Shown: positions 17,563 to 63,208 of the stretch, piece after piece
How positions within the stretch are numbered: position 1 is the stretch's first letter
Layout: every line of letters starts with the position of its first letter
Source: Zanthoxylum bungeanum
Taxonomy: Eukaryota > Streptophyta > Magnoliopsida > Sapindales > Rutaceae
Length of the DNA stretch: 64,000 nt
NCBI GenBank assembly: GCA_019454045.1
Contig: SKCR01036783.1
Location: 1-64,000, forward strand
Reading direction: 5' to 3'
Program-made: the position numbers and the translations under genes
Notes under the pieces: generated by a model
The model's input: the letters and a program-made list of their open reading frames with translations, nothing else
The model's database searches: none
Told to the model about the DNA's origin: nothing

Positions 17563-17690
17563 AAGCCACTTTCGTAGGGATCACGATTGCATTTAGCGTA
17601 TGCAACAAGTCTTTAAACCCCTAGGTGTCCCTAGTGGACGAGTTATAGTCTCGTGAGGGCTTACAGCGACGACACCCACAAACGTCATTC
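17563..17690 (-). other. Conserved 3'-UTR block shared by Athila-like elements
   Basis: The block contains the plus-strand strings GATCACGATTGCATTTAGCG, ATGCAACAAG, CCTAGTGGACGAG and GACACCCACAAACG. Close relatives occur at 57038-57150 in LogR and 52003-52110 in Ath2, at similar distances from the polypurine tract, although the LTRs of these families are unalike. No reading frame is conserved, so this looks like a structural or cis-acting RNA/DNA element. It recurs inside the Ath1 array near 22570 and 25030. Confidence 0.75.
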
Positions 17691-18793
17691 AAAACACACA
17701 ATCATGCAAAATAAATAGTCCCAATAGTTTCACATAAGTTCGTCCTCAGAGAATGCATAGTAATGAAACAATAGAACCTTCAAAGTACTCAACGCAACTC
17801 AAATCTAAATCTTTGAATAAATCATCTAAGCCAGACTCATAGTGTGTGTGTGATAAAGTTCATTCACAACTTTATTCCCAGGTAAGCCAACTCAATGATT
17901 TCGTCTGAAAATTGGGTCGATGGGTCTAACAACCTAGATATCTCAATTAAGCTATGTAGTTGCTTTTATGTGTGCTCAATATGGTATGATTTTTTTTTTT
18001 TCTTTCCTGTCTCTTGTTGCATTTTCTTTTGAATTTTTCTTTTCTTTCTCTTTTGCCATTTTTTTTTCAACACACCTACCCTTCAAGGTACCATTTCTCC
18101 TCATGGTGGTCCTAATACTCGCCCATGGGTAGCTTCACGCTTGTTGGTTATAGGTGGTTTACTTTCTTTCTTCAGAGACTTTTTCTTTTATTTGCATTCA
18201 TACCATACGTCATAACACAAGCAATTCAGGATAGATATCTAAGCAAACGGTCATTCAACATGCAATTTATTCAACTAGTCATCTTGCTAACTACTCAGGC
18301 TTCCACTGCTAAAAACCCATAATTAAGTGCTTACGAGTCTAACATAGATAAACTACTCAAATCATCAGATAAAAGTGCATTAAAGGACTTATCGTTTCTA
18401 AGATTTCACCCTAAAGTAAACAATATCATCATTGGATTATGTTTAACTAATAAGGACTAAAAACAAACAAAACAAAACAAATTTTTTTTTTTAAAAGAAA
18501 ATAATCAAATGTATTTAAGACAGGCTTCCATGCGCATGCACACACACCACCACACTTAAAACTTGCATTGTCCTCAATGTAAGATAAATGTAAAGAAAAA
18601 GGATTAAGGAACAACACTACCAGACGCGGAGTTGATCAGGTTCCTGCTGGCAAGACTTGGCTGTGTGGCTGTGTAGGTTGTGCTAACTCCTGCATAAACA
18701 CTCATGCAAACAATAAAATAAAACATGTAATTAGCACACACAATAATATAAAACTAAAGTAAATAGAATAAAATAAAATAAATGCAGATGTAA

Positions 18794-18840
18794 GGGTTGC
18801 CTTCCCGCTAGCGCTAAGTTTAACGTCTTCAGACAGACGC
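18794..18840 (-). other. Conserved post-gag block (GGGTTGCC...AGCGCT...TCTTCAG)
   Basis: The plus strand reads GGGTTGCCTTCCCGCTAGCG, then a T-rich link and ACGTCTTCAGACAGACG. LogR has the matching block at 59399-59444 (GGGTTGCCTCCCTACTAGCG, TCTTCAGCCAGACG). In both elements it lies on the 3' side of gag on the minus strand. Its function is unknown; it may be an untranslated signal or the remnant of the gag-pol end. Confidence 0.7.
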
Positions 18841-19280
18841 AAACACTCAAGTTGTCATGGTGGTTTCCATCTAGCGTACTGATAAAGACACACGAGTGAA
18901 TGTTTGTCTAGCTGAGGCAGTGTATTCATGGGTCCTCTTAGGTCTGGAGTTTGTTGAAATCTTGGACTCTTCGTATAGAAAATTTTTCTCAATGTCCTTT
19001 TTAATCTCACAGGCATCATCTTTAATTGAGCATTAACTCTCATTTTCTCATTTTTCGGTTCTTTGGGATCAGTTTTAGCTCAAGAGGATTTAATTCAGGA
19101 TGTGGAGAATTTGTTTCTGGAAGGACTGTTTCTAGCATGTATGATAATGACACTCACCCTCACCCTGTGGTTGTTTCTCGAGATGTAAACTGTTAAGTTC
19201 TTGAGGAGAGGGTACTCTAACTTGGAAAGGTGGCACTTGTTCTTCCTGAGATATGTTAACACTATTATCCTTAGGGTCAC

Positions 19281-20745
19281 CTATAGTGCTGGAAGTATTT
19301 CTGTATCCCTACCTCTTTTACTGCTCCTAGTGATTATGGCATTAACACCTCCTATATTGGATACCTCATGATTAACATGTGCCATGTGCTGACCTAGTGG
19401 ATTAGGTTGAGTCTGAGATGGGAATTTTCCTTGTCTTTGTACACTCAGGACATTTGTCAATTTAAAGATTTGACTCTTGATTTCTTTTTGGTCTTCAACT
19501 ACCTGAGATATCAACGACTCAATCCTTTGATTGGTTTTGCTTTGGTCTCTACGAATACATGCCACATCTTCTAAAGAATTCACAGGAATGGCAGGTGTGT
19601 GATACTGTGAGGTACTGTAACTCCAAGGTTGTGGTGTCTGGGTAGGCTGATAGGACTCCTGCCTCCAACTAACATTGGGATGGTTCTGCCAACTAGGATT
19701 ATAGGTGTCAGAATATGGTGTATAAGGCATTTGGTACATCCCTAAAGTATTGTAGTTTTCCTCATATATACCCCTCGTCTCACTATATACAGGACACTCA
19801 TGGGGTTCTAGGTGGGCTACTGAATGCATAGTCTTGCTCTTTCTGGCTTTTAAGGTTTCTATCTGTTTGGTCAATAGCTCAACTTGTGCCTTAAGACTAT
19901 CATCCTCTCTCAATTGGTGTACGCTCCTGCTCGGAGGGGTAGAGTGTGTCCTATCAGTGCTATCTATGGAATTGGGTCCAGTCCAGGTATGAGACTTCTT
20001 TGCTAGATCATCTAAGTATTCGAGCGCCTCATCAGGGTCATTTCGGATAAACTCACCATTGCACATTGTCTCAACGAATTGGCGCTCCCTAGGTGTCAAT
20101 CCATCATAGAAATAACTAACTAAACACCAACTCTCAAATCCATGGTGAGGACAACTAGCTAACAACTCCTTATACCTCTCACACGTTTGATAAAGGGTCT
20201 CACTGTCTCTCTGAGAGAAGGTGGAGATTTTTCTTTTCAAGGCATATGTTTTATGGTGTGGGAAGTATTTGTCAAGAAATGCCTGGGTCATCTCGCCCAC
20301 GATCCTATTGACCTCTGGTCTTAAAGAATACAACCAGCTCTTAGCTCTATCCTTAAGGGCAAAGGGAACAAACTAAGTCTAATTGTGTCAGTGGTTCCGA
20401 ACCGGTCATGAAAGTTGCTACTACCTCTTCAAACTCCCTAATGTGCACGTAAGGGTTCTCGCTCTCTAAACCGTGAAAAGTAGGAAGATATTGTATCATC
20501 CCAGGTTTAAAATCTATGGGTGGTGCATTAGGAGAAAACATTATGCACGAAGGTGTAGCTGTGCGAGTTGGGTAGAGGTACTCTTCAAGAGTCCTCCTGG
20601 GTGGTCTCTCGTACTCACTCATGGTATGTCTATTAGATCTAGATGGTGTAGCAAAAAGATTCTCAAATATATTATCTTGATCTGACTCTAAATCTTCATG
20701 TTCTATTCTAGCATATCTACCTAATTGATCCCTAAATCTAGACAT
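19281..20745 (-). pseudogene. Ath1 gag (Athila type), one frameshift
   Basis: Structural capsid protein of an Athila-like element. The ATG is at 20745 (MSRFRDQLGRYA). The usual Athila gag landmarks follow: SYP-type leader, FKPGMIQYLPTFHGLESENPY, HIREFEEV, a frameshift near 20370, then DRAKSWLYSLRP, FLDKYFPHHKTYALKRKIS, QRDSETLYQTCERYKELLASCPHHGF, YFYDGLTPRERQFVETMCNGEF and NHPNVSW. The expected CX2CGGPHX4C zinc knuckle is degenerate (only ECPVYSE is left). It ends at 19281 with no protease or RT after it. Apart from the frameshift the frame is open for about 480 codons, which suggests recent decay. It could be complemented in trans by autonomous Athila elements. Confidence 0.88.
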
Positions 20746-21004
20746 GCACTCCAACACAACTAATAGAAATAAAATAAAATAAATGAAACTAAAAATTAAA
20801 GTCTACTAAAACCAAAAATAAAATAAAATGAACACAAAAATAAAAAAAAATCTAAACAAAAAACTAAGAAAAGAAAAAAAAATTAAAAGAAAATACTAGG
20901 CAAATAATAAATGAATAAAATAAAATACTAATAAAAAAAATGGAACGAAGTTACCGCTTCGTTGTTGACTAAGCAAACCTGGTCCCTTTGCTTGTAAACC
21001 GTCT

Positions 21005-21020
21005 CCCGGCAACGGCGCCA
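21005..21020 (-). promoter_or_regulatory. Ath1 primer binding site, tRNA-Asp
   Basis: The plus strand CCCGGCAACGGCGCCA equals the last 16 nt of plant tRNA-Asp(GUC), including CCA side pairing, so the minus-strand element is primed by tRNA-Asp. It is 5 bp from the 5' LTR at 21026. Athila-type elements are known to use this tRNA. Confidence 0.85.
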
Positions 21021-21025
21021 AATTT

Positions 21026-22494
21026 TGATTACGCCCAAATATGACTCGCGGTTATCGCAGTACAGTTTGGGGTGTCGATTCCACAGAGAGATGGTTACAA
21101 AGAAACTGGTTCACTAAATCAAGAACGTTAACGGTAACTAAAATAAATAAAATGATAAAAATGGTAATTAAAGTGAAGATAAATAAAATAATGAAAAAGA
21201 TATTAAAGATAATGGCAGAGAGATATGACAAAGCTTCGGGAATCCCTCTTGCATCGAACTCCTATATTTAGTTATTGATTCCTTTTATTACACAATTGAA
21301 GGTTTCACATCCCAAACCAACAACCGGAAAATATTCAATTCTACGCATGATAAATTCTAAGGTAATTAATGATTATTTTCTCTATGTTAACAGCATACAA
21401 AAGCCATCGTTACGAGCTATCTAACGTCGACAATATACCCTCAGGCAATACTGCAGCAGAAGACCAACACGCAAAACAACTTTACCAGTCACAATTAAAT
21501 TCGCAAACCACACATAGAAGAAGCATGACTGGATCTATATGGGATTTGACAAAACATAATTTCTGGATTAAATAATCGAAAGATAATAGAAAATAACAAC
21601 CATTAATTTTATTAAACAATAAAAAGGTTCGTAGGAATCAAAAACATAAATAATAAAATCCAACACAAGAGCTCATCCCTAACTTTGCCTAGGGGATTAG
21701 TTCCTCATAAAAGAAATAGAAATAGCCTGGGATTGGAGAGAATTGTTGTTCTGAATCATCACGGCTCCGTGTCCTTACTTCAAAGCTCTGATTTCTTCTC
21801 TGAACTGGCTCGGCACTGCTTCTCTGCTTTCTGCGTCTGGGCACTATTTTTTTGTTATTATTTTCTTGCGCAGGCCGCTTGTTCACGTAGCAGGCTTCCT
21901 TTTTTATACTCACGCTGAAAACCCTATTTATATTGCACGGCAGCCTCTTTTTTAGATGCCCACTTTGTAGCTTTAAATAACCATTGACTATTCAAAACCT
22001 AATTCCATCATGGGCCCACGTGTTTTATTTGGTCATGCCTTTTTCTCTCTCTTCTTTATTCTTCACGCTGGAGCTATGTTTTTGGTCAACAGTGTCATGC
22101 AAACTCTTCTTTTAAATTGTTTATTCTCTCACACATTCATGCTTTCGGCCCCACGTGAACTGGAGCTCTTCACGCCACCTTTTTGCTTTACAAATGGCGC
22201 CGTGGCGCCATACTCCCTGCATTTTGTATGGGATTGTGGCGCCGCGGCGCCAATTCAATCTTTCCTCCTCGATTCCTGTGTGCGTCCTATGCATCCCTAA
22301 ACACTTGTAATTGTCCCATGATTCATATGTTAATATTCCTACAAATAAAAATCACTAAATTAGTGTAAATAATAAATATTTCTAAATTAATATAACAATC
22401 AAAATTATGTACTAAAACATAAAATATATAACTAAATGCTTAACAATAAGCCTATATAATTGATGTTTCAAAGTATATTTTCATGCACTTATCA
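21026..22494 (-). repeat. Ath1 5' LTR
   Basis: Begins TGATTACGCC and ends CACTTATCA on the plus strand, 1469 bp, nearly identical to 16022-17482. It adjoins the tRNA-Asp site on its left. To its right another internal region begins, with a polypurine tract, instead of host flank. Confidence 0.92.
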
Positions 22495-24274
22495 TAACCC
22501 CCAACCAGCTTATTGCTAGTCCCTAGCAATTCAAGCGTAAAATAAAATGAAAATTAAATAAATAAAAATTATCTAAGCCACTTTCGTAGGGATCACGATT
22601 GCATTTAGCGTATGCAACAAGTCTTTAAACCCCTAGGTGTCCCTAGTGGACGAGTTATAGTCTCGTGAGGGCTTACAGCGACGACACCCACAAACGTCAT
22701 TCAAAACACACAATCATGCAAAATTAAATAGTCCCAATAGTTTCACATAAGTTCGTCCTCAGAGAATGCATAGTAATGAAACAATAGAACCTTCAAAGTA
22801 CTCAACGCAACTCAAATCTAAATCTTTGAATAAATCATCTAAGCCAGACTCATAGTGTGTGTGTGATAAAGTTCATTCACAACTTTATTCCCAGGTAAGC
22901 CAACTCAATGATTTCGTCTGAAAATTGGGGTCGATGGGTCTAACCAACCTAGATATCTCAATTAAGCTATGTAGTTGCTTTTATGTGTGCTCAATATGGT
23001 ATGATTTTTTTCTTTTCTTTCCTGTCTCTTGTTGCATTTTCTTTTGAATTTTTCTTTTCTTTCTCTTTTGCCATTTTTTTTCAACACACCTACCCTTCAA
23101 GGTACCATTTCTCCTCATGGTGGTCCTAATACTCGCCCATGGGTAGCTTCACGCTTGTTGGTTATAGGTGGTTTACTTTCTTTCTTCAGAGACTTTTTCT
23201 TTTATTTGCATTCATACCATACGTCATAACACAAGCAATTCAGGATAGATATCTAAGCAAACGGTCATTCATCGACATGCAATTTATTCAACTAGTCATC
23301 TTGCTAACTACTCAGGCTTCCACTGCTAAAAACCCATAATTAAGTGCTTACGAGTCTAACATAGATAAACTACTCAAATCATCAGATAAAAGTGCATTAA
23401 AGGACTTATCGTTTCTAAGATTTCACCCTAAAGTAAACAATATCATCATTGGATTTATGTTTAACTAATAAGGACTAAAAACAAAAAAACAAAACAAATT
23501 TTTTTTTTTTAAAAGAAAATAATCAAATGTATTTAAGACAGGCTTCCATGCGCATGCACACACACCACCACACTTAAAACTTGCATTGTCCTCAATGTAA
23601 GATAAATGTAAAGAAAAAGGATTAAGGAACAACACTACCAGACGCGGAGTTGATCAGGTTCCTGCTGGCAAGACTTTGGCTGTGTGGCTGTGTAGGTTGT
23701 GCTAACTCCTGTAAACACTCATGCAAACAATAAAAATAAAACATGTAATTAGCACACAATAATATAAAACTAAAGTAAATAGAAAAAATAAAATAAATGC
23801 AGATGTAAGGGTTGCCTTCCCGCTAGCGCTAAGTTTAACGTCTTCAGACAGACGCAAACACTCAAGTTGTCATGGTGGTTTCCATCTAGCGTACTGATAA
23901 AGACACACGAGTGAATGTTTGTCTAGCTGAGGCAGTGTATTCATGGGTCTCTTAGGTCTGGAGTTTGTTGAAATCTTGGACTCTTCGTATAGAAAATTTT
24001 TCTCAATGTCCTTTTTAATCTCACAGGCATTATCTTTAATTGAGCATTAACTCTCATTTTTCTCATTTTTCGGTTCTTTGGGATCAGTTTTAGCTCAAGA
24101 GGATTTAATTCAGGATGTGGAGAATTTGTTTCTGGAAGGACTGTTTCTAGCATGTATGATAAATGACACTCACCCTCACCCTGTGGTTGTTTCTCGAGAT
24201 GTAAACTGTTAAGTTCTTGAGGAGAGGGTACTCTAACTTGGAAAGGTGGCACTTGTTCTTCCTGAGAAGCAGTT

Positions 24275-24952
24275 CTCGGCACTGCTTCTCTGCTTTCTGC
24301 GTCTGGGCACTATTTTTTTGTTATATTTCTTGCGCAGGCCGCTTGTTCACGTAGCAGGCTTCCTTTTTTATACTCACGCTGAAAACCCTATTTATATTGC
24401 ACGGCAGCCTCTTTTTTAGATGCCCACTTTGTAGCTTTAAATAACCATTGACTATTCAAAACCTAATTCCATCATGGGCCCACGTGTGTTTATTTGGTCA
24501 TGCCTTTTTCTCTCTCTTCTTTATTCTTCACGCTGGAGCTATGTTTTTGGTCAACAGTGTCATGCAAACTCTTCTTTTAAATGTTTATTCTCTCACACAT
24601 TCATGCTTTCGGCCCCACGTGAACTGGAGCTCTTCACGCCACCTTTTTGCTTACAAATGGCGCCGTGGCGCCATACTCCCTGCATTTTGTATGGGATTTG
24701 GCGCCGCGGCGCCAATTCAATCTTCCTCCTCGTTCCTGTGTGCGTCCTATTGCATCCCTAAACACTTGTAATTGTCCCATGATTCATATGTTAATATTCC
24801 TACAAATAAAAATCACTAAATTAGTGTAAATAATAAATATTTCTAAATTAATATAACAATCAAATTATGTACTAAAAATAAAAATATAACTAAATGCTTA
24901 ACAATAAGCCTATATAATTGATGTTTCAAAGTATATTTTCATGCACTTATCA
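24275..24952 (-). repeat. Partial Ath1 LTR inside the array
   Basis: The right half of the LTR (from CTCGGCACTGC to CACTTATCA), with small deletions relative to 21809-22494. It carries both GC palindromes and the TATA box. It is followed at 24953 by the polypurine tract and a second gag-less internal copy that ends at 26730. Confidence 0.88.
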
Positions 24953-26737
24953 TAACCCCCAACCAGCTTATTGCTAGTCCCTAGCAATTCAAGCGTAAAA
25001 TAAAATGAAAATTAAATAAATAAAAATTATCTAAGCCCCTTTCGTAGGGATCACGATTGCATTTAGCGTATGCAACAAGTCTTTAAACCCCTAGGTGTCC
25101 CTAGTGGACGAGTTATAGTCTCGTGAGGGCTTAAGCGACGACACCCACAAACGTCATTCAAAACACACAATCATGCAAAATTAAATAGTCCCAATAGTTT
25201 CACATAAGTTCGTCCTCAGAGAATGCATAGTAATGAAACAATAGAACCTTCAAAGTACTCAACGCAACTCAAATCTAAATCTTTGAATAAATCATCTAAG
25301 CCAGACTCATAGTGTGTGTGTGATAAAGTTCATTCACAACTTTATTCCCAGGTAAGCCAACTCAATGATTTCGTCTGAAAATTGGGGTCGATGGGTCTAA
25401 CAACCTAGATATCTCAATTAAGCTATGTAGTTGCTTTTATGTGTGCTCAATATGGTATGATTTTTTTCTTTTCTTCCTGTCTCTTGTTGCATTTTCTTTT
25501 GAATTTTTCTTTTCTTTCTCTTTTGCCATTTTTTTTCAACACACCTACCCTTCAAGGTACCATTTCTCCTCATGGTGGTCCTAATACTCGCCCATGGGTA
25601 GCTTCACGCTTGTTGGTTATAGGTGGTTTTCTTTCTTTCTTCAGAGACTTTTTCTTTTATTTGCATTCATACCATACGTCATAACACAAGCAATTCAGGA
25701 TAGATATCTAAGCAAACGGTCATTCATCGACATGCAATTTATTCAACTAGTCATCTTGCTAACTACTCAGGCTTCCACTGCTAAAAACCCATAATTAAGT
25801 GCTTACGAGTCTAACATAGATAAACTACTCAAATCATCAGATAAAAGTGCATTAAAGGACTTATCGTTTCTAAGATTTCACCCTAAAGTAAACAATATCA
25901 TCATTGGATTTATGTTTAACTAATAAGGACTAAAAACAAACAAAACAAAACAAATTTTTTTTTTTTTAAAAGAAAATAATCAAATGTATTTAAGACAGGC
26001 TTCCATGCGCATGCACACACACCACCACACTTAAAACTTGCATTGTCCTCAATGTAAGATAAATGTAAAGAAAAAGGATTAAGGAACAACACTACCAGAC
26101 GCGGAGTTGATCAGGTTCCTGCTGGCAAGACTTTGGCTGTGTGGCTGTGTAGGTTGTGCTAACTCCTGCATAAACACTCATGCAAACAATAAAAAATAAA
26201 ACATGTTGTAATTAGCACACAATAATATAAAACTAAAGTAAATAGAATAAAATAAAATAAATGCAGATGTAAGGGTTGCCTTCCCGCTAGCGCTAAGTTT
26301 AACGTCTTCAGACAGACGCACACTCAAGTTGTCATGGTGGTTTCCATCTAGCGTACTGATAAAGACACACGAGTGAATGTTTGTCTAGCTGAGGCAGTGT
26401 ATTCATGGGTCCTCTTAGGTCTGGAGTTTGTTGAAATCTTGGACTCTTCGTATAGAAAATTTTTCTCAATGTCCTTTTTAATCTCACAGGCATTATCTTT
26501 AATTGAGCATTAACTCTCATTTTTCTCATTTTTCGTTCGTTCTTTGGGATCAGTTTTAGCTCAAGAGGATTTAATTCAGGATGTGGAGAATTTGTTTCTG
26601 GAGGACTGTTCTAGCATGTATGATAAAGAACACTCACCCTCACCCTGTGGTTGTTTCTCGAGATGTAAACTGTTAAGTCTTGAGGAGAGGGTACTCTAAC
26701 TTGGAAAGGTGGCACTTGTTCTTCCTGAGAAGCAGTT

Positions 26738-27422
26738 CTCGGCACTGCTTCTCTGCTTTCTGCGTCTGGGCACTATTTTTTTGTTATATTTTCTTGCGCA
26801 GGCCGCTTGTTCACGTAGCAGGCTTCCTTTTTTATACTCACGCTGAAAACCCTATTATATTTTGCACGGCAGCCTCTTTTTTAGATGCCCACTTTGTAGC
26901 TTTAAATAACCATTGACTATTCAAAACCTAATTCCATCATGGGCCCACGTGTTTTATTTGGTCATGCCTTTTTCTCTCTCTTCTTTATTCTTCACGCTGG
27001 AGCTATGTTTTTGGTCAACAGTGTCATGCAAACTCTTCTTTTAAATTGTTTATTCTCTCACACATTCATGCTTTCGGCCCCACGTGAACTGAGCTCTTCA
27101 CGCCACCTTTTTGCTTTACAAATGGGCCGCCGTGGCGCCATACTCCCTGCATTTTGTATGGATTGTGGCACCGCGGCGCCAATTCAATCTTTCCTCCTCG
27201 ACTCCTGTGTGCGTCCTATGCATCCCTAAACACTTGTAATGTCCCATGATTCATATGTTAATATTCCTACAAATAAAAATCACTAAATTAGTAATAATAA
27301 TAATATTTCTAAATAATAATATAACAATCAAATTATGTACTAAAACATAAAATATATAACTAAATGCTTAACAATAAGCCTATATAATTGATGTTTCAAA
27401 GTATATTTTCATGCACTTATCA
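26738..27422 (-). repeat. Terminal partial Ath1 LTR, right border of the insertion
   Basis: The same half LTR as 24275-24952, ending in CA at 27422 and followed by GAAAA. This is the real right end of the insertion. Its GC palindromes have changed (a C inserted in the first, G to A in the second), whereas the internal copies keep them. Confidence 0.88.
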
Positions 27423-32784: not shown

Positions 32785-34215
32785 CAAAGTTGATTCACAT
32801 GATGTCATCGTACGGACTGAGGAAAGCTCATGACTTTAGTTGACCCGATATGAGTCAACGGGGTGTTCCCGGTTGACTGAACCAAATGAAGGTTCAGAAG
32901 TGGAGTCGTTTCACTCGACATCATCGTGTGGATTGAGGGAGGTCCATGTCTTCAATTGACTCGACATGAGTCTTTCAGGGGATGTCCCCGGTTGACTGAA
33001 CCAGATGAAGGTTTATGAGCCATTTCATTCGAAATCATCGTATGGACTGAGGGAGGTCCATGTCTTCAATTGACTCGACATGAGTCTTTCGGGGGATGTC
33101 CCCGGTCGACTGAACCAGATGAAGGTTTAGAAGCCATTTCATTCGACATCACCGTATGGACTGATGGAGGTCCATGTCTTCGATTGACTCGACATGAGTC
33201 TTTCGAGGATGTCCCCGATCGACTGAACCAGATGAAGGTTCATGAGCCATTTCATTCGACATCTTCGTATGGAATGAGGGTGGTCCATGTCTTCAATTGA
33301 CTCCACATGAGTCTTTCGGGGGATGTCCCCGGTCGACTGAACCAGATAAAGGTTTAAGAGCCATTTCATTTGATATCGTCGTATGGAGTGAGGGAGGTCC
33401 ATGTCTTCAATTGACTCGACATGAGTCTTTCGGGGGATATCCCCGGTTGACTGAACCAGATGAAGGTTCATGAGTAATTTCACTCGACATTATCGTATGG
33501 ACTGAGGGAGGTCCATGTCTTCATTTGACTCGACATGAGTCCATGGGGGTTGTCCCTGGTCGACTGAACCAGATGAAGGTTCAGAAGTAATTTCACTCGA
33601 CATTACCGTATGGACTGAGGGAGGTCCATGTCTTCATTTGACTTGACATGAGTCCATGGGGGTTGTCCCCGTTCGACTGAACCAGATGAAGGTTCATGAG
33701 TAATTTCACTCGACATTGTCGTATGGACTGAAGGAGGTCCATGTCTTCATTTGACTCGATATGAGTCCATGGGGGCTGTCCCCGGTCGACTGAACCAGAT
33801 GAAGGTTCAGAAATAATTTCACTCGACATTATCGTATGGACTGAGGGAGGTCCATGTCTTCATTTGACTTGACATGAGTCCATGGGGGTTGTCTCCGTTC
33901 GACTGAACCAGATGAAGGTTCATGAGTAATTTCACTCGACATTGTCGTATGGACTGAGGGAGGTCCATGTCTTCATTTGACTCGATATGAGTCCATGGGG
34001 GTTGTCCCCGGTCGACTGAACCAGATGAAGGTTCATGAGTAATTTCACTCGATATTTTCGTATGGACTGAGGGAGGTCCATGTCTTCATTTGACTTGACA
34101 TTAGTCTATAGGGGTTGTCCCCGGTCGACTGAACCAAATGAAGGTTCATGAGTAATTTCATTCGACATCGTTGTATGGAATGAATGAGGTCCATGTCTTC
34201 GATTGACTCGACATG
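32785..34215. repeat. Tat1 3'-UTR tandem repeat, about 114 bp x 12
   Basis: The phrase GACTGAACCAGATGAAGGTT recurs at intervals of 113-119 bp, from about 32874 to 34126. Each unit also holds GGAGGTCCATGTCTTC and GACATGAGTC. The main period is a multiple of three, so open frames run through it on both strands without being genes. Tandem repeats in the 3' UTR are known in Tat-lineage elements and can seed satellite DNA. Confidence 0.92.
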
Positions 34216-34497
34216 ATTCCTTGTTCCACTAAGCCTTCACATGATGTCATCTCGAAAGGTTATATACTTGGTACAAAGTCAGATGGCAGCATCCCATGTT
34301 CTAAGCCTTCATACCGCGTCATGTTGTGTCTTTAGCGTGAGGGCTTTTAATATCTTTCAGTCGACATTTCTGAAAGATTACTTGTGATCTGTTGGGACTT
34401 GGCTGCTTTCTAGGTTCTTCTCTCATTCATCTAATGCAACCTTAGCACAAGCTTCGAGGTATTTTTGGCGGGAATTTGAGACGCCAAAAGGGACGGT

Positions 34498-49239: not shown

Positions 49240-50666
49240 GGTTGCATGAGACATTGATCTCGATCATCTAGTGGTAGATTAAATAGAGAGTCTCCATCAC
49301 CTTTGTCGTTAGTCAAAGTGGCCCAGAACCAAAATGAAAATCTACCTGCCCGAGTTGGAAATCCAGTTGATCAGGAAGAAAACGAGTCTCAACATGGCGA
49401 TCTTAATCATCTTAGGACACTCAGACAATTCACAAATTCCACTAGGACAGGATCACCATATTGTATTGTTTTCCCCCAGATGCGTCACGTTTCAATTTTA
49501 AACCAGGCATCATCCAACGTTTACCCATATTCCACGGTCTAGAATCAGAAAATCCTTATCAGCACTTAAGGGAATTTGAAGAGGTATGTAACACTTGTAC
49601 AAACCAAAATTACAACATGAATATAATTCAACTCAAGTTTTTTCCTTTTTCTTTAAAGGATAAAGCTAAAATTTGGCTACAGAACCTTAGGTCATGATCC
49701 ATCAGAACATAGAATGATTTGCAAGAGTAATTTCTGCAAAAAAATTTCCCCATCACAGGACAAACTCCTTTAAAAGGAGAATCACAACTTTCACACAAGA
49801 GTCGGGGGAAATATTTTACCAATATTGGGAGAGATTTAAAGAAATGTTGAATATTTGTCCACATCATGGGTTTGAAACATGAAGGTTGGTTTCCTACTTC
49901 TACGAGGGTTTAACACCCCAATGTAGGCAAGTAGTGGAAATTATGTGTAATGGTGAGTTTAGGGACAAAAATCCAGAAGATGCACTAGATTACCTAGAAC
50001 ACATAGCAGAGAATGCACAACAATGGGATACAGTTTGCACATATGAGTCGCCTGTAAAACCACAGTCATCTGGTAGAGGTATGTTTAACTTTAGGGAAGA
50101 CCATGACCTTTCTGCTAAGTATGAATCTCTAGCTAAAAAAGTTGAGGCATTAGAAATGAGGAAGAATGATCATGTAAAGTCAGTTCAAGAAGTCACATGT
50201 CATAGCTGTAATTCAAATGAACATGTCACACAAGTTTTCCCAACCATGCCAGCCCTGCAAGAATGTCTCCATGACCAATTCAAATCCATAAACACTTTCA
50301 ATAGACCAAATCCAAACTCGTACTATTAAACCTACAATTCTGGTTGGAGAAACAATCCAAACTTCAATTGGAGGAATGATAACCGAGCACAACCATCGCA
50401 ACAACCTCCGCAGGTACACCATAATTTTCAAATTCTCATAATTATACACCATATGTCTCACCGCCTAGGAGAACCCTTGAGGATACCTTGCATGTATTCA
50501 TTGAGAAATAAAAAGCAATTAATAACCAAAATATGCAAACATTGATTGATCTGAAAGATAATTTCTCCAAAATCACATCTGCATTGACCATTAATGAGAA
50601 AAGAATATTTCCTATACAACCACAACCAAACCCTAAGAGTCATCAAAAACCCCACGAGGGTAGAAA
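49240..50666 (+). pseudogene. Ath3 gag (Athila type), broken and truncated by Ath2
   Basis: Homologue of the Ath1 gag on the plus strand. In order: RTLRQFTNSTRTGSPYC, FKPGIIQRLPIFHGLESENP, HLREFEEVCNTC, FPFSLKDKAKIWLQNLRS, a disrupted region, YWERFKEMLNICPHHGF-type sequence, VSYFYEGLTPQCRQVVEIMC, EDALDYLEHIAENAQQW, a CX2CX5HX4-like trace (CHSCNSNEHVTQ), NTFNRPNPNSYY and NWRNNPNFNW-like sequence. It has frame changes near 49470 and 49690, a stop near 50328 and others. The sequence stops at FPIQPQPNPKSHQK, where Ath2 begins; the equivalent Ath1 passage is FPSQTQPNPLGQH. Confidence 0.82.
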
Positions 50667-54802: not shown

Positions 54803-56223
54803 CCCATGCCCGGGATGTTTGCGAGCGTATTCGCATTTCGAATTCGAATGCGGCATGCAAGTCAAATCAAACGTCAAATCATTAGTCACATCAAGCGTCA
54901 AATCACATATCACTTTGAGTGATGTGTGACCGGCGTAAACACACACGTATAACGCAAGCGCACGTATCGTTCAAGTAGTATAAAAATATCGATCCCACGA
55001 GGACTTAATTCCTACTGTTGTTATTAATTATTGAATATATTTATTTACAAATATCTAATTGAGGGTGAAGAGAATGATTGTTTGATTGGTTGAAAGTGGT
55101 TTTACAAAATAAATAAAAAGACAAAAGAAAATACTAAGGAAAATAACAAAAGACACAAAGAACTAGGGTTGTGAATCCTTCTAATATCTTTTAAAAGATG
55201 AAGTGATTATTTTATGTTTGTGTAATAAATCAGATTACTAACCTGGAACACTAAATTATGCAAAAGCCTCTGTCGATGGTCAGACGCAAATACCCAGTTT
55301 AACCCAATTGAACCATATGTCTATGTCAACCAAATTATCTGGATTCATTAAGTTTAAGTTCCAATTATGGCTACCCCCGCCCGACAGGTATATGTCTATC
55401 ATGTAAGGAAATCTATTAAAGGGTTATCTGTCCTCAAGGAAGATCGTGGGCTATTAAGTCTAAGGCTGAAACCTAAAATCCCTATGTCTAGTTCATTTTA
55501 GATATACCACATCAATCTTATTGGTGATCAGACAACAAGAAAATTAGGCTTAAGACTTAATAAGTAAACCTTTAAATTACCCAAACTATAAAATAACCCC
55601 TTATAAACCGGTGATATTAGAATTCATCACAACCTCAGATAACTAACACATAACTAGGGCTAGTAAGAACTTAAAAGTAAAAGACATAAAGTAAAAATGC
55701 TGAAAAGTAAAAGACATAAAGTAAAAGCTGAAAAGTAAAATAAAATAAAATAAAATGCTAAGGTAAAAGGAATTACTTTTACTATTTACTATTTTAGATA
55801 TCTCCCATAAAATAATATATAAACTTGTGATAATATTACCAACCGACCAATCTGGCGGTATCCTTTATTAGTCAGGTTTAAACCAGACTAAAATGAATTA
55901 CCAACCGACCAATCTGGCGGTATCCTTTTTAAGTCAATATTTTAAATAGTGAATATATTATTTTTAAGGGAGATTAATCTAAATAGTAACAGTAAAAGAA
56001 TTACCTTTCACCATAGCTGGGGAAGTTACCTCCTCATGGTAAATAGTAAAAACTGTAAAAAGTAAAAAAAGTAAATTACTATATTAACACAACGTAATTA
56101 AAATTATTTACAAAAATAAAAACTAAAAAAAACTAAAAACTAAAAGAAACTAGAAAGATAAACTCTCTCTTTACATCAAAGAGATGAGAGAGAGTGGTAC
56201 AACAAATTCTGAAATTTGAAGCT

Positions 56224-56234
56224 GAATTTATAGG
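56224..56234 (-). promoter_or_regulatory. TATA box of LogR LTR
   Basis: Minus-strand CCTATAAATTC. It lies 60-430 bp downstream (in the direction of transcription) of the ACGTG array. The same sequence is present in the other LTR near 61848. Confidence 0.65.
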
Positions 56235-56296
56235 CGCGGGTAGGCTTCTAGCGTCGCGAGGCCAGGGCCTTTGGAGTCGCTACGCCAGCTTCTATC

Positions 56297-56650
56297 GACG
56301 TGGCACGCTCTGGTTCGTCGGTTTGCAGATTCTGGGTAAGCTGATAAGGTGACACGTGGCGAGATGGTTGGGCTTCAATTATTGTGACACGTGGCGGCTT
56401 CTGATTGGTCGATGAGATTCTTATCCACCACGTGTCAGATAAGGATTAGATACTCAATGATTGATGCTGACGTGGCGGTGACATGGCGACACGTGGGAAA
56501 GAGACTGTCGGCACCGTAGGATTACGACACGTGGCACTTCCTGATTGGCTGATGATGACGTGGCATTGAGGTGGCAGTTTGACTTGGTCAACTTGGTGAT
56601 GTGGCTAATGACGTGGTAATGATGTGGAGTGACACGTGGCACACGTGGCG
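56297..56650. promoter_or_regulatory. Array of eleven ACGTG (ABRE/G-box) cores in LogR 3' LTR
   Basis: ACGTG cores occur at about 56299, 56354, 56389, 56429, 56470, 56491, 56529, 56559, 56610, 56633 and 56643. Most are in the full ABRE or G-box form ACACGTGGC or the TGACGTGGC form. A TTGACTTGGTCAAC sequence with two opposed W-box cores (TTGAC/GTCAA) lies near 56580. ABREs bind ABA-responsive bZIP factors, and several copies are usually needed for ABA response. Position directly upstream of the TATA box supports a promoter role. No expression data are available here. Confidence 0.8.
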
Positions 56651-56971
56651 ATGATGACTGTCGGCACCGTAGGATGCTGACATGTGGCATGTCGCATCTT
56701 AGCAAATTCAAACTTTTCTCAGATTCTGATTTGGGACCCAGCTCACGTTAGCACTGTTCGGCGCACGTTAGGCGTCGCGACGCGAGAATTTACCAAAATG
56801 CCATTTTCGTCCAATTTTCACTGTTTTGGCCCAAATCACCTCCAGAATGTCCTGAAACTTTATTTATCTACAAAATAACACAAAACACATCAAAATATTC
56901 ACAAAACTCAAGAAACTATACAAAATATTAGGTTAAATGAGTGGAAATAGTGATAGATTTACCACTCATCA

Positions 56972-56986
56972 CACCCCCAAACCTAA
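56972..56986 (-). promoter_or_regulatory. LogR polypurine tract
   Basis: The minus strand reads GGTTTGGGGGTG immediately before the LTR start TGATGAGTGG. It matches the positions and G-runs of the Ath1 and Ath2 tracts. Confidence 0.7.
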
Positions 56987-57037
56987 TATTTTGCTAGTTC
57001 TCGAGCAAAACATAAAATAACATAAATAAATTAACAA

Positions 57038-57150
57038 AGCCACTTTCATATGGATCACGTTTGCATTTAACGTATGCAACAAGCCTTTAAACCCTTAGGT
57101 GTCCCTAGTGGACGAGTTGTAGTCTCGTGAGGGTTTACAGAAATGATACC
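57038..57150 (-). other. Conserved 3'-UTR block in LogR
   Basis: Plus-strand words GATCACGTTTGCATTTAACG, ATGCAACAAGCC, CCTAGTGGACGAG and TAGTCTCGTGAGGG correspond to the Ath1 block at 17563-17690 in the same order. In both cases it starts about 65-80 bp from the LTR. It has no conserved reading frame. Confidence 0.75.
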
Positions 57151-57535
57151 CACAAACATTTTACAAAAGTAAACAGGTAATAAAACTAATGCACACAAAA
57201 GCAAAAAGACAAGCGAAAAGAGAATAAAGATGTAGTGACTGATCAGGTGAAACTTCTACTCCAAGTTACTAGTTGTTTTGTTTTATTCTAAATTACTGAA
57301 TAAGTAAATTCTCCGATTATATTTACCATTCTTCATATACATAGCCAACAAAATATTAAACAACTTATTTTTGCCCACAACAGTCATAAGTGCAGTTGAT
57401 AAGAGAGTAATATTTTTGTCCTAAAGTTTTATCAGAATTCACACCTTTTTGGAGCAATGGAATAATTTTTTTTTTTTTCTGATTTTTCTTTGATTTTTCT
57501 TTTTCTATTTTTTTATTTATATACAATACCTTCCA

Positions 57536-57757
57536 TCTATGTAACGAGTGTTGGGTCGGTGGCTCCCAAACCAGTTGGTTTTAGGGCACCAGTGTTAAGA
57601 CACCCCTACAGACTAATTACTCAGACTTCAGATATATATATTTTTTGCAGCATCTTCGATCCATGTAACGAGCTTTGGGCCAGTGACTCCCAAACCAGTT
57701 GGCTTTAGGGCACTAGGTGTTAAAACACCCTACAACTTAATAACTCGGATCTCAGAC

Positions 57758-57800
<43 letters not shown>
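57536..57800. repeat. Two imperfect 100-bp direct repeats followed by a 41-bp T tract
   Basis: Segments near 57536-57635 and 57655-57755 share GGCTTTAGGGCAC-like, CTCCCAAACCAGTTGG and GTTAAAACACCC-like words. A run of 41 T (57760-57800) follows; on the coding (minus) strand this is a poly-A run. The T tract may be a slippage product or the trace of a captured poly-A tail. Confidence 0.75.
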
Positions 57801-57803
<3 letters not shown>

Positions 57804-58297
57804 CTATTGCTTTTTGAAATGCTTCCTCCAATTAAACTAGAGCACTGAATATTACAAACTTTTCAATTTAGCTCATGTCCGTATGTTACTTTATATGTTG
57901 ATAATATCTGCTAACTGAACATATGAAGATTCCTTTTAGTCCGTTTTAAGGAGAATTCACAAATTAATAATTTAAAAGGAAATAAACAACAATTAACTTA
58001 TTTCGAAAATAGGCTTGAGATACGTCTCAGGAGTGGAAACTCCTTACTCAGCTATCTCTTACCAATTTCACACATTTTTAGTCAAAATAAAAACACAAAA
58101 ACACAAATATTTTTGTAATTTTTGAAAATTTTCAAAAAATTTTGGACTAAAAATAAAAACAACATACAAACTAAAAACAAGGTACTAATCAACTAATTCC
58201 CCCCCCCAAACCTAAATGAGACATTGTCCCCAATGTCTTAAACAGTAAAAGGAGAGTTAAGAAGGTCGTACCTGGTTAGGTGAAAATCTACAGGAAA

Positions 58298-58949
58298 TTA
58301 AAGGTTAAGATCCAGATTAATCCGACGCCTCTTACCACGATCGTCCTCGGACCAATTTATCTTTGAAAGGATAGGGCAACTTGTGGTTCATAGGCTAAGA
58401 GTTGGTCAATTAGATCCGGAGTAGTTCTGGCAGTAAAGAGGAGTTCTTTCAAAGGTTTTGACACGAACCCATTCTCCCGAGCATCATCAAGAAACACACA
58501 AAGAAAATCATAAAATCCATCAACGTTGAGCAGTCCAAGCGATTTCTGTTGTATGTTCAGGTTCGCCCCAGATAGAACTATAAAAATTTCCTCCAATGTA
58601 CCCAAGCCCCCTGGCAAAGCGATAAAAGCATCAGCACGGTTAATCATTTCTACCAGTCGTTGAGACATACCTGGCAATCAAGTTCCTCTCTGTTTGATGA
58701 TCCAATAAGATTTGCCTCTGCCAAGGGTTTTGGGATGATTCCCAAAACATGACTGCCTCCTTCCTGTACAGCCTTTGAAACAATCCCCATAAGTCCGAGA
58801 TTGCCTCCGCCATATATTAAGTGCATATTTCTTGCAGCTAAGACTCGACCCAATTCCTGTGCTGCTTCTACGTATTGTGGCTTAACTCCAACACTACTAC
58901 CACAAAATACACAGATGTTTTCAACTCGTCTTCCTGAAGTGGCTTCCAT
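58298..58949 (-). pseudogene. LOG-like: Captured LOG-family gene: cytokinin riboside 5'-monophosphate phosphoribohydrolase, frameshifted
   Basis: LOG enzymes convert cytokinin nucleotides to the active free bases in one step, in cytosol and nucleus. ATG at 58949. The first frame encodes NICVFCGSSVG, MHLIYGGGNLGLMG and GIIPKPLAEANLIG, then runs out of frame near 58680. The second frame continues with MSQRLVEM, ADAFIALPGGLGTLEEIF and GLLNVDGFYDFL. PGGxGTxxE is the family signature; the Arg of the MxxR box is kept. After a second shift near 58370 a third frame continues INWSEDDRGKRRR and ends L-D-L-N-L at a stop at 58298-58300. Total length would be near 220 residues, as in LOG proteins. There are no introns although plant LOG genes normally have several, so capture from mRNA is likely. 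This copy is dead unless other copies are intact. Confidence 0.9.
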
Positions 58950-59398
58950 TTTTTATGTATTTGTTTTTCAAATCAGGATGCCTTCAAAAGTGTAATGACA
59001 GGCTGAATTTATAATACCTGAAAAAGGGTGAGTAATAATAGCACTAATATCTTCCAAAGGACGATTGTTAGCTAAACAACAAAAGAAATCGTGAAAGGTC
59101 AAAAAGTATGGATCCTGTCTATGAAAATAAAGATAATTACAACTGAAAAGTGAATCAAAGCAATAATTAAGGCAACAGAATTGTGTAGTCAATACGCCAC
59201 TCGCTTAGTATAAATTCATTAGGACGCGTCTCAAGATTTCATTCCTTACTCAGCCATCGCTAATGAATTGTTTCTCATTTTTGATTGCCAACACAATTCC
59301 TTCTGTCTTAAAATGCTTCGTTTGTGCCTTTCCCTACAAAAATAACACACAAAATTAAAAGTTCACACAAAATATGAAAAAAATTACAACAATTACAT

Positions 59399-59444
59399 GG
59401 GTTGCCTCCCTACTAGCGCTAAATTTTTCATCTTCAGCCAGACG
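59399..59444 (-). other. Conserved post-gag block in LogR
   Basis: The plus strand has GGGTTGCCTCCCTACTAGCG and TCTTCAGCCAGACG, matching the Ath1 block at 18794-18840. It separates the gag-derived region from the captured gene. Confidence 0.7.
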
Positions 59445-59461
59445 TGACTGAAATTCATCTG

Positions 59462-60716
59462 TTAAGGAGGTTTCAATGTCATTTTGGATGTCCGATTAAA
59501 GACAATCCCGTGAGCGTTTCTTTTGAAGGGTCTCTTCCAATGGTAAAGTGGCAAAAAGAGTTTTGTCTCATTCAGTGCTCGTGCCACCTTTTTGCTCCTT
59601 GTTGTTCCAGTGATTCCTGCAAAGAAAGAAAGAAAATCAGGAGGTCTCATATGGTGCTTGACTTGGAATGGGAGTTCCATTCTGTCAAGCTTCTGGGCGA
59701 TATCTTTGATTTGTACTCCCCAAAACAGCGATGTTTCTCCTGAATGCTCTGGATTTTCAATTTGGTCTGATAGTTGCTCCTCCATTTGCTCTGCTTCTTG
59801 TTCCACATTTTCTTCACAGATGTATTGTAAAATTTTTGTATTCAGCTCTTTATCTGTCATCTGTGAAATACATGCTTCAAAATTGTCAACCTGAGGATGC
59901 AAAGATGTTTCTGACATTAGGTTTTCATCCTCTGATACGACTGTAATGGATGGTCAGATAGATCTTCTTCAAAATCATGGTAAAGCATGCTCCAAGATCT
60001 TCATTTTGAGGATTGAAAGTTTGATCCTCCGTTGTTGGTGCAGTTGGTACAAATAGATCAGCTTCATCCTCGTCAGAATCTGAATAATAAAAGTCAAATT
60101 GAGACTTTGTCGGTTCGGGCTCCTGAACTGATACCTCTGGTTGTTGATATTGCTCAGCCTCCTCCTCTGTTGAAGTGTCATTGTGAAATGATTGGTACTC
60201 GAAGGCTTCATCAGTGTCATCTGAAACTGGTTCTTGAGGTATGTAGTTCTGGTTTTCTGTGAATTGTCTCATTTGATCTGTCATCCTCTGATTGAATTCT
60301 TATTGTCTCTGAATTTGTGTATCTAATTGAGCTTCCCATTCTTCGAGCCAATGTTTGAGCGTGTGAATCAACTGATCTTCCTCGGATGGTTCTGTTTGTT
60401 GATGAAGATCGTAGATGGATGGTGGATAAGATGGATAATATGATGGTTCTTCGTACCTTGAATGATTCCAATAATTCTGCCACTCTGAAAGGTATATACA
60501 TTGATCGCTCGGGTGGTTACCATCACATATTACACATCTCCCCATTTCGTTTTGTTGAGCAAATGTAGAATTGCTTGGTTCTGGCATCCAGTGATAATCA
60601 TTGGGCATGACAACAGACCTCAGAAAAACCGGACTGTTGCTCCCAGATGTGGGGTGTATCTTCTTGTAAGGTTCGTAATCTCTCAATCTCCCAGTAGTGT
60701 TCCATTTTTCAACCAC
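59462..60716 (-). pseudogene. LogR gag-derived ORF, broken
   Basis: The minus strand starts MVEKWNTTGRLRDYEPY at 60716. A zinc-knuckle-like CVICDGNHPSDQC (CX2CX3HX4C) has the spacing of the Athila gag motif CX2CGGPHX4C. Then come YYPSYPPS, a Gln/Glu-rich stretch (HTLKHWLEEWEAQLDTQ, MTDQMRQFTENQ), acidic sequence, and a C-terminal part with EQLSDQIENPEHSGETSLFWGVQ and KLFLPLYHWKRPFKRN. There is an in-frame TAA at about 60298 and frame changes near 59930-59990. The capsid domain of Athila gag is missing, so it is a gag C-terminal remnant rather than a full gag. The function of the last 150 residues is not recognised. Confidence 0.65.
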
Positions 60717-60811
60717 CTGAAAAAGAAATAAATAAAATTACAGATAAAAATAAAGAAAATTAGATACAAGTAATTTGATAGCTTCAAAATTAACAACTCA
60801 AGAAATATAAG

Positions 60812-60829
60812 TCCCCGGCAACGGCGCCA
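60812..60829 (-). promoter_or_regulatory. LogR primer binding site, perfect tRNA-Asp match
   Basis: The plus strand TCCCCGGCAACGGCGCCA is identical to the last 18 nt of plant tRNA-Asp(GUC). It lies 6 bp from the 5' LTR at 60836. Perfect retention suggests fairly recent mobility. Confidence 0.9.
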
Positions 60830-60835
60830 AAAACT

Positions 60836-62624
60836 TGACCGGCGTAAACACACACGTATGTTTACTAACCTGGAACACTAAATTATGCAAAAGCCTCTGT
60901 CGATGGTCAGACGCAAATACCCAGTTTAACCCAATTGAACCATATGTCTATGTCAACCAAATTATCTGGATTCATTAATTTTAAGTTCCAATTATGGCTA
61001 CCCCCGCCCGACAGGTATATGTCTATCCTGTAAGGAAATCTATTAAAGGGTTATCTATCCTCAAGGAAGATCGTGGGCTATTAAGTCTAAGGCTGAAACC
61101 TAAAATCCCTATGTCTAGTTCATTTTAGATTTACCACATCAATCTTATTGGTGATCAGACAACAAGAAGCATTAAGCTTAGACTTAATAAGTAAACCTTT
61201 AAATTACCCAAACTATAAAATAACCCCTTATAAACCGGTGATATTAGAATTCATCACAACCCCAGATAACTAACACATAACTAGGGCTAGTAAGAACTTA
61301 AAAGTAAAAGACATAAAGTAAAAATGCTGAAAAGTAAAAGACATAAAGTAAAGCTGAAAAGTAAAATAAAATAATATAAAATTCTAAGGTAAAAGGAATT
61401 ACTTTTACTATTTACTATTTTAGATATCTCCCATAAAATAATATATAAACTTGTGATAATATTACCAACCGACCAATCTGGCGTATCCTTTATTAGTCAG
61501 GTTTAAACCAGATTAAAATGAATTACCAACCGACCAATCTGGCGGTATCATTTTTAAGTCAATATTTTAAATAGTGAATATTATTTTTAAGGAGATTAAT
61601 CTAAATAGTAACAGTAAAAGAATTACCTTTCACCCTAGCTGGGGAAGTTACCTCCTCATAGTAAATAGTAAAAACTGTAAAAAGTAAAAAGTAAATTACT
61701 ATATTACCACAACGTAATTAAAATTATTTACAAAAATAAAAACTAAAAAAAACTAAAAACTAAAAGAAACTAGAGAGAGAAACTCTCTCTTTACATCAAA
61801 GAGATGAGAGAGAGTGGTACAACAAATTCTGAAATTTGAAGCTGAATTTATAGGCGCGGGTAGGCTTCCAGCATCGCAACGCCATGGCCTTTGGCGTCGC
61901 TACGCCAGCTTCTGTCGACGTGGCACGCTCTGGTTCGTCGGTTTGCAGATTCTGGATAAGCTGATAAGGTGACACGTGGCGAGGTGGTTGGGCTTCAATT
62001 ATTGTGACACGTGGCGGCTTCTGATTGGTCGATGAGATTCTTATCCACCACGTGTCAGATAAGGATTAGATACTCAATGATTGATGCTGACGTGGCAGTG
62101 ACGTGGCGGTGACGTGGCGACACGTGGGAAAGAGACTATCGGCACCATACGATTGCGACACATGGCACTTCCTGATTGGCTGATGATGACGTGGCGTTGA
62201 GGTGGCAGTTTGACTTGGTCAACCTGGTGATGTGGCTGATGATGTGGTAATGACGTGGAGTGACACGTGGCACACGTGGCGATGATGACTGTCGGCACCG
62301 TAGGATGCTGACACGTGGCACGGCGTATGTTAGCAAAGTCAAACTTTTCTCAGATTCTGATTTGGGACCCGGCGCACGTTAGCACTGTTCGGCGCACGTT
62401 AGGCATCGCGACGTTGAAGGTCTTGGCGTCGCGACGCGAGAATTTACCAAAATACCCTTTTCGTCCAATTTTCACTGTTTTGGCCCAAATCACCTCCAGA
62501 ATGTCCTGAAACTTTATTTATCTACAAAATAACACAAAACACATCAAATATTCACAAAACTCAAGAACTATACAAAATATTAGGTTAAATGAGTGGGAAA
62601 TAGTGATAGATTTACCACTCATCA
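60836..62624 (-). repeat. LogR 5' LTR, 1789 bp
   Basis: Colinear with 54927-56971 except that about 284 bp corresponding to 54952-55235 are missing at the priming-site side (joint CACGTATGTTTACTAACC). It also has a third palindrome region with GCGTCGCGACGC at about 62425-62436 and a degenerate GCATCGCGACG just before it. It is followed by the TSD ATGTG. Confidence 0.92.
61917..62320. promoter_or_regulatory. Array of about thirteen ACGTG cores in LogR 5' LTR
   Basis: The same array as in the 3' LTR, with two more cores created by a local GTGACGTGGC(A/G) repetition near 62088-62125 and another at about 62312 (GACACGTGGC, where the other LTR has GACATGTGGC). The cores are conserved between the LTRs even where neighbouring bases differ. 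The TATA box lies near 61848. Confidence 0.8.
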
Positions 62625-63208
62625 ATGTGACAATTGATTGATTGATCGATGTGAGTTGATGTGAGATGATGCAAGCATTTAATGCTTGACTTTTGTGAAA
62701 TTAAAAAAGTGGTAAATGGTTAATTAATTTTGGAAATATAAAAACCTAATACACTTTTTATTTTCTCTCTCTCTTGATACGGTTTTAGAGCAAAAAATGG
62801 AGCCAAAAATGCTCCTCTCTCTCACGGTCTCAAAACCTCATATTCCTTCTATTTGTCTGTAAAACCGTGAGTGAAGGAGAAGGTATAGACTTGATTTTGT
62901 TGCAAGATCAAGGTGCTAGCACACTCTATGAGGCATACAAGGTGATAGGGAAACCATCTCATGAGCATGGAATCACCATTGATGAAGCTTGGAGCTTGAA
63001 GATGAAGATGAAGTCCAAAACCCACCATGACCGAATCCTTGGAGCCCAAACCAGTGGGTTTGCCGAGCTTGAATTATGAGGAAATGGAGCTTTGTTCTTC
63101 GATGCATCCAATCCATTCATTGTGAGTATTCCGCACCTCCTTTGATGTGTATTCATACTTGTTTCATGCTTGATTAATGATCTTGGGAAGCTTATAAAAC
63201 TCCAACAA

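Follow-up and report, generated by a model that had tools for sequence, protein, structure and literature searches.

The window analysed here is a stretch of 64,000 nucleotides from Zanthoxylum bungeanum (assembly GCA_019454045.1, contig SKCR01036783.1, positions 1 to 64,000 of the forward strand). Toward its right end lies a long terminal repeat (LTR) retrotransposon carrying a gene of the cytokinin-activating LOG family. Its parts, with the target-site duplication (TSD), the primer-binding site (PBS) and the open reading frames (ORFs), are listed in the direction in which the element reads.

54927..62624, minus strand: LTR retrotransposon, whole element
62625..62629, no strand: right copy of the TSD, ATGTG
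60836..62624, minus strand: 5′ LTR, 1789 bp, without about 280 bp that the 3′ LTR has
60811..60829, minus strand: PBS, core TGGCGCCGTTGCC, which we take to match tRNA-Asp
59462..60753, minus strand: broken ORF1, homologue of the 442-residue ORF1 of locus L032, with a CX2CX3HX4C motif
58298..58949, minus strand: LOG-family gene, intronless, with two frameshifts (pieces 58949-58680, 58677-58378 and 58375-58301)
56972..58297, minus strand: 3′ non-coding region common to other LOG-bearing copies, with a G-rich tract at its end that adjoins the 3′ LTR
54927..56971, minus strand: 3′ LTR, 2045 bp
54922..54926, no strand: left copy of the TSD, ATGTG

The original prediction for this locus, made from the letters of the window alone, was of an LTR element with a perfect TSD and a near full-length, intronless LOG gene on its coding strand, placed where a 3′ accessory ORF would stand. 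All of this holds. The predicted element coordinates are exact, the LTRs are 94.8% identical over 1773 columns (BLAST; Kimura two-parameter distance, K2P, 0.037), the PBS core starts 6 nucleotides downstream of the 5′ LTR end, and LOG lies on the coding strand between the gag-like ORF block and the 3′ LTR. Using an intact copy as tblastn query, residues 1-90, 92-191 and 193-217 of 217 were recovered within 58949-58301; the gene is nearly full length and intronless, and is broken by two frameshifts. One piece matches Pfam family Lysine_decarbox (PF03641, E 1.1e-23) and another SLOG LDcluster4 (PF18306, E 2.1e-11), and solved Arabidopsis LOG chains are matched as well. Element and LOG are confirmed as real and are no chance pattern. 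Pfam matches to SpoIISA, Fe_dep_repr_C and DUF4175 were discarded because their scores fell under the curated cut-offs. The window copy is without pol, and gag and pol are absent from it as domains. The block of ORFs that separates its PBS from LOG is a homologue of the ORF1 of L032 (L032 5519-6844), which has a zinc-knuckle-like motif, weak similarity to the gag of L034 (25% over 118 residues, E 2e-7) and no Pfam or NCBIfam match.

Other copies were sought in the same assembly (3.96 Gb, 51,709 contigs). The first-look candidates of the separate genome searches (6040, 51112, 43319 and 3495) are unscored and should not be taken as copy numbers. For the search with the LOG segment as DNA, 40 of 6040 candidates were scored, all at 94% identity or more and the window among them. 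Forty LOG loci were examined, 30 from this search and 10 from a second one, both sets picked by LOG similarity. In each of the 30 LOG-chosen loci taken (L001 being the window itself) LOG is followed by the 3′ region known from the window element, and nowhere among these did it show the insertion borders of its own that the original prediction had named as counter-evidence. An uninterrupted LOG frame of at least 212 residues is present in 23 of the 40 loci, including L007, whose tail is changed.

A LOG-blind sample was obtained by searching with the 3′ non-coding region; 40 of 3495 first-look candidates were scored and 16 taken, these being the best-scoring rows after the window and after one row too close to a contig end. 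LOG sequence was found in 13 of the 16 (11 nearly whole, 2 partial), so that a general lack of LOG in other copies, the second finding named as counter-evidence, was not what we saw. Three copies read through to 217 residues and one more is open to the end of its stretch. A LOG unique to the window copy is ruled out by the genome searches and this sample.

The LTRs stand in direct orientation and have TG..CA ends, and perfect 5-bp TSDs flank all five elements with both ends seen (the window, L031, L032, L033 and L036). The PBS core stands 6 nucleotides after the 5′ LTR end in six of seven (the window, L031-L034 and L036); the exact 13-mer is not present in L035, though the start is alike. LTR K2P values are 0.018-0.037 (four elements measured). 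L031, L032 and L033 share the window layout of LTR, PBS, ORF1, LOG and LTR, and both ORFs are uninterrupted in L032. Longer relatives also carry LOG. L034 and L035 contain gag, a protease-like stretch and the final part of an integrase-like region, followed in L034 by a 200-codon frame and then LOG. L038 and its upstream part L047 make up a broken, longer copy comprising an LTR, a PBS, gag, protease, a reverse transcriptase (RT)-like start, an integrase-like piece, the same additional ORF as in L034, and LOG. Gag was matched by PF03732 in L034 (E 1.4e-23) and L047 (E 4.9e-13) and recognised by eye in L035; the protease region of these relatives gave RVP_2 at E 0.0068, below the Pfam cut-off, and their RT- and integrase-like stretches were recognised by eye, with no Pfam match. 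At the other extreme, an uninterrupted LOG is the sole recognisable gene of L036, between PBS and 3′ region (LTRs 98.1% identical by BLAST, TSD GTGTT). On a tree of LOG from the 40 loci (37 labelled as short or long layout), at least seven changes between the two layouts are needed, and LOG has therefore been shared or exchanged between them.

Two side observations concern these loci. L031 is a short element apparently inserted into the gag-protease region of a longer relative, whose sequence flanks it at L031 1-690 and 9455-10000 (gag, matching PF03732, to one side and a protease-like stretch to the other). Pairs of nearly identical loci on separate contigs (L054/L055, L052/L053, L002/L004 and L019/L020) suggest that both haplotypes were assembled, which would inflate copy counts.

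The original prediction had made any effect on the host depend on intact LOG copies; these exist, as given above, and median ratios of nonsynonymous to synonymous substitution (dN/dS) lie between 0.126 and 0.316 when element copies are compared among themselves. The copies fall into two subfamilies with 61-66% of LOG residues in common. Subfamily 2, seen intact in L039, L040, L041, L042, L044 and L046, combines replacement of arginine 98 by glutamine (R98Q) and an altered tail with a strongly constrained protein. By the Nei-Gojobori method (NG86), the 23 intact frames give a median dN/dS of 0.316 for subfamily 1, from the 132 of its 136 pairs whose dS exceeds 0.02, of 0.126 for subfamily 2 (14 of 15 pairs) and of 0.138 for comparisons between the two (102 pairs, mean dS 1.8). 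Across 30 subfamily-1 loci, broken ones included, codon positions 1, 2 and 3 differ at 0.044, 0.021 and 0.063, versus 0.069 in the downstream non-coding DNA; for the 13 broken loci alone the values are 0.048, 0.021 and 0.059, with 0.058 in non-coding DNA, which suggests that the pattern of constraint mostly predates their breakage. The corresponding values for the six intact loci of subfamily 2 are 0.063, 0.044 and 0.211. Among 28 different rows, shared variants comprise 31 replacement, 36 silent and 3 stop changes, against 85, 51 and 5 of these three kinds among private variants (replacement/silent, shared versus private: Fisher p 0.035); neutrality would give 2.3-2.7 replacements per silent change. 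This distribution fits selection in the replicating lineage with relaxation after insertion. As patterns of substitution, these comparisons show codon-level purifying selection on the element LOG.

The encoded protein resembles plant LOGs in family, fold and motifs. The element LOG matches PF03641 at E 2.9e-34, and that of L032 matches TIGR00730 at E 1.3e-48 (165 bits versus a cut-off of 96). For P0049, a relative 86% identical to the L032 LOG, the AlphaFold model has a mean pLDDT of 85.8 with a disordered tail, and its best fold match is Arabidopsis LOG 2a33 (E 3e-21, rmsd 1.1 Å). All 23 intact copies from this genome retain the PGGxGTxxE glutamates E120 and E121; at the position of E121, chain 5zbk, an AMP complex, has alanine. 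Arginine 98, a conserved residue of LOG proteins, is kept in 17 of the 23; glutamine replaces it in all six copies of subfamily 2, and does so as well in 8 of 99 relatives. Of the 23 copies, 21-23 retain each of the remaining motif residues that were checked. It is plausible that the element LOG frees cytokinin. The tail was surveyed in 103 relatives of at least 205 residues among 117 new proteins (P0048-P0164), from the best 120 of 7808 matches. Of these relatives, 97 carry a basic pair within the final 20 residues, 79 carry LxLxL within the final 8, and 77 combine the two; LxLxL is found in 12 of 23 intact copies from this genome.

Host LOG genes were examined at the five best of 20 loci (L052-L056; the other 15, at 44-48% identity, were left out). 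Each is interrupted as by introns, which were inferred from split tblastn matches, and L052/L053 and L054/L055 may be haplotype pairs. Interruptions fall at PG|G[Y/F]GTLEE in L052, L053 and L056, and before VGLLNVDGYY and before EY[V/F]P in L054, L055 and L056; element LOGs have no such breaks. The string PGGYGTLEE failed as a marker of host LOGs, four of four genomic matches looking like element copies. In a tree of 57 proteins the element-type LOGs form one clade of 43 rows (support 98/96), comprising LOGs of this genome, proteins from Acer, Xanthoceras, Populus, Reevesia, Diplodiscus and Paulownia, and further unnamed ones. This clade is sister to the four sampled host LOGs (host group 99/95, both together 100/99). 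The tree carries a long-branch warning (P0031 with P0042), and its two bacterial outgroup rows, of which 5zbj is the Pseudomonas aeruginosa LOG, do not lie on one side of a branch; the clades cited exclude these rows. Since Xanthoceras, Populus and Reevesia are rosids and Paulownia is an asterid, a single clade across both, sister to host LOGs, suggests a single, old capture, and the element may also have spread horizontally between lineages. The original prediction is unsupported where it implied a capture particular to the window element or a recent one: the clade spans rosids and an asterid, and longer gag-pol relatives carry LOG. Capture by a recently formed non-autonomous element is likewise rejected on the eudicot-wide clade. 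Three poplar proteins named LOGL10 (P0088, P0091 and P0098) match P0085, a member of the element clade, at 205-210 of 217 positions.

In longer relatives a second gene precedes LOG.

L034:4140-4739 and L038 684-1277, element sense: carlavirus-like nucleic-acid-binding ORF, between the integrase-like end and LOG

About 182 codons of the L034 frame are conserved, and it matches Viral_NABP (PF05515, 32.3 bits versus a cut-off of 23) and Carla_C4 (PF01623, 24.3 versus 20.9). L038, P0165 and P0195 are above both cut-offs, and P0243 matched PF01623 alone, below the cut-off. PF01623 stands in the precomputed annotation of 120 of 120 listed relatives (the best 120 of 276), which include proteins of Xanthoceras, Populus, Acer, Orobanche and Rhamnella; the ORF is thus widespread in plants. 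Its AlphaFold model is poor (mean pLDDT 62.7), no convincing solved relative was found (3 matches, best E 0.66), and the ORF had no tblastn match in the window. LTR elements and plant RNA viruses have likely exchanged this gene, in one direction or the other, to judge by these family matches.

Elsewhere in the window, gag-like remnants of related elements lie at 19374-20550 and 49446-50413, and 3′ regions resembling that of the element, without LOG, at 17532, 22544 and 25002. Long direct repeats of several kb each, about 98-99% identical, occupy 16022-27422 and reflect a recent duplication or an assembly effect; 32805-34220 is a tandem array with a period of about 114 bp.

The explanation that we favour, and that we hold to be about evenly poised between right and wrong when taken whole, is an Athila-like Ty3/gypsy lineage in which LOG, captured once and long ago, is a regular accessory gene located between pol and 3′ LTR, kept for a cytokinin benefit and provided with a nuclear tail. 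The window element would be a pol-less, decayed member of it. We take the lineage to be Athila-like from the look of gag and integrase, the layout and the type of primer. The element LOGs have no introns where the host LOGs are interrupted; we infer a single uptake of a spliced host LOG mRNA, predating the split between the rosid and asterid lineages sampled. The LTR would drive an RNA from which the 217-residue LOG is made, and the LOG of the full-motif subfamily would free active cytokinin bases inside the expressing cell. Cytokinin would push that cell to division or to a meristem-like state, making it likelier that a new copy is made and inherited, and the basic tail would take LOG to the nucleus.

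Several results weigh against this explanation. The strongest against a purely enzymatic account is subfamily 2, which has lost the arginine yet has the lowest dN/dS; cytokinin release is therefore unlikely to be the sole selected function there. NCBIfam's equivalog for the cytokinin enzyme, NF058542, scored 111 bits on the element LOG, under its cut-off of 300. Membership of an LTR element was seen in DNA for the tree rows from this genome, and for the others was inferred from similarity and copy number, helped for poplar by PMC9289625. In the LOG-blind sample, LOG sequence is absent from 3 of 16 copies and partial in 2. The selection figures come from few copies, picked partly by similarity, and NG86 is conditioned on intactness; some pairs are perhaps two haplotypes of one insertion, recent pairs are heavy in post-insertion mutations, and dS between subfamilies, at about 1.8, is near saturation. 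Three stop variants are common to more than one copy. Finally, the last 14 codons in subfamily 1 show no stronger constraint than the other codons (position 2: 0.062 versus 0.020), which over short times speaks against a selected tail.

LOG may instead be kept for a job other than cytokinin release: its fold would serve as the scaffold of a tether, nuclear or ribonucleoprotein, and the basic and LxLxL tail would do the work, binding for example a TOPLESS-type co-repressor or import factors; we consider this unlikely, though a serious candidate. LxLxL is a candidate EAR-type TOPLESS-binding motif. The tail is common in the surveyed relatives (97, 79 and 77 of the 103, counted as above) despite differences at up to about half of all positions, the host loci L052 and L053 end without it, and the strong constraint on subfamily 2 without its arginine would be explained. 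Against a tether, subfamily 2 has the LxLxL altered too (LDIDLNR and similar), barely half of the intact copies have it, the tail is disordered in the model and not more constrained within subfamily 1, and the other motif residues of the enzyme remain nearly everywhere among these copies.

Returning to LOG as an enzyme, its substrates might be nucleoside monophosphates generally, so that it would alter the nucleotides available to reverse transcription, much as the dUTPases of some retroviruses do. The fold is indeed common to nucleosidases such as PpnN; however, the nearest folds and families are cytokinin-type LOGs and the PpnN score is far under its cut-off, and this reading has a slim chance. 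LOG as passive cargo spread with the element we find scarcely probable: an uninterrupted LOG is missing in 12 of 16 LOG-blind copies, the window copy is broken and three stop variants are shared between copies, but dN/dS is well below 1, shared variants are depleted of replacements, the frame is kept between subfamilies as divergent as those described, and LOG is retained in elements without pol or even, in L036, without ORF1. An independent, intronless retrogene landed inside one LTR element has next to no probability and is refuted for this family, since LOG occupies the same place in the 30 LOG-chosen loci (window included), its sequence is in 13 of 16 LOG-blind copies, no borders of its own were seen in either set, and it belongs to a eudicot-wide clade.

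A bolder proposal takes both extra genes together as a virus-like module, a carlavirus-type nucleic-acid-binding protein and a nuclear LOG, acting like a retroviral oncogene set. The first protein would counter or use the host's nucleic-acid control and LOG would raise cytokinin, driving cells that express the element into division or into the germ lineage, with LOG a non-catalytic regulator in one subfamily. We offer this tentatively and think it rather apt to be wrong.

If the LOG is active, a class of plant transposable elements encodes a selected hormone-activating enzyme, which would give a genomic parasite a direct route to shape host-cell development. Element LOG copies risk annotation as host LOG genes, the poplar LOGL10 proteins being an example. 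The carlavirus-type neighbour suggests that genes have passed between LTR elements and the RNA viruses of plants, and the arginine-less subfamily is a natural test of whether enzyme activity or another property is under selection.

The kind of element is known. PMC9289625 reports a YgdH (LOG) domain in Citrus gypsy-type consensus sequences and, under a looser filter, in those of poplar, and cites Steinbauerova et al. 2011. The claim in the original prediction that a hormone-activating enzyme as LTR cargo is undescribed is too strong. A literature search, with most subscription papers outside its scope, found no description of LOG selection, of the tail, of the virus-like neighbour or of pol-less LOG elements. 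As far as that search goes, the new results are the selection, the single clade, the basic and LxLxL tail, the virus-like neighbour, the retention of LOG in elements without pol, and a subfamily in which the protein persists minus a conserved arginine.

The published YgdH elements and those described here are alike in having a LOG-type domain in plant Ty3/gypsy elements; relatives from poplar and from Sapindales (Acer, Xanthoceras) fall in the same LOG clade as the window family, and no Citrus protein is named in the tree. They differ in that the consulted parts of PMC9289625 give domain presence, to which we add copy structure, TSDs, intactness, selection, clade, tail, virus-like ORF and pol-less derivatives. 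In the Gypsy elements of Phalaenopsis, treated in the same paper, a host-type enzyme, an AlkB RNA demethylase, is likewise fixed as an extra ORF of a gypsy lineage and kept over replication; it is a different enzyme, its activity was demonstrated, and it was found there in Phalaenopsis alone. Compared with the Arabidopsis LOGs At2g37210 (2a33) and At5g11950 (1ydh), the element LOGs have the same fold and the PGGxGTxxE, FCGS and GGG motifs, but are intronless, mostly read PGG[L/F]GT rather than PGGYGT, carry the basic and LxLxL tail in most relatives and have R98Q in one subfamily. Athila elements have an env-like ORF in the 3′ position. Our elements resemble them in having gag-pol and then an extra sense ORF before the 3′ LTR, a 5-bp TSD and a PBS that we take to match tRNA-Asp, which is among the non-chromovirus primers in the portion of PMC6317226 consulted; they differ in that the extra ORFs are LOG and a carlavirus-like protein in place of an envelope-like one. 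The survey of extra ORFs in that portion used a 250-codon minimum, and the 217-codon LOG and its 182-codon neighbour fall below it, so that such a survey would miss both. Maize Bs1, in what we drew from PMC7264820, is also an LTR element with host gene sequence; here, by contrast, LOG is a standing part of an element family.

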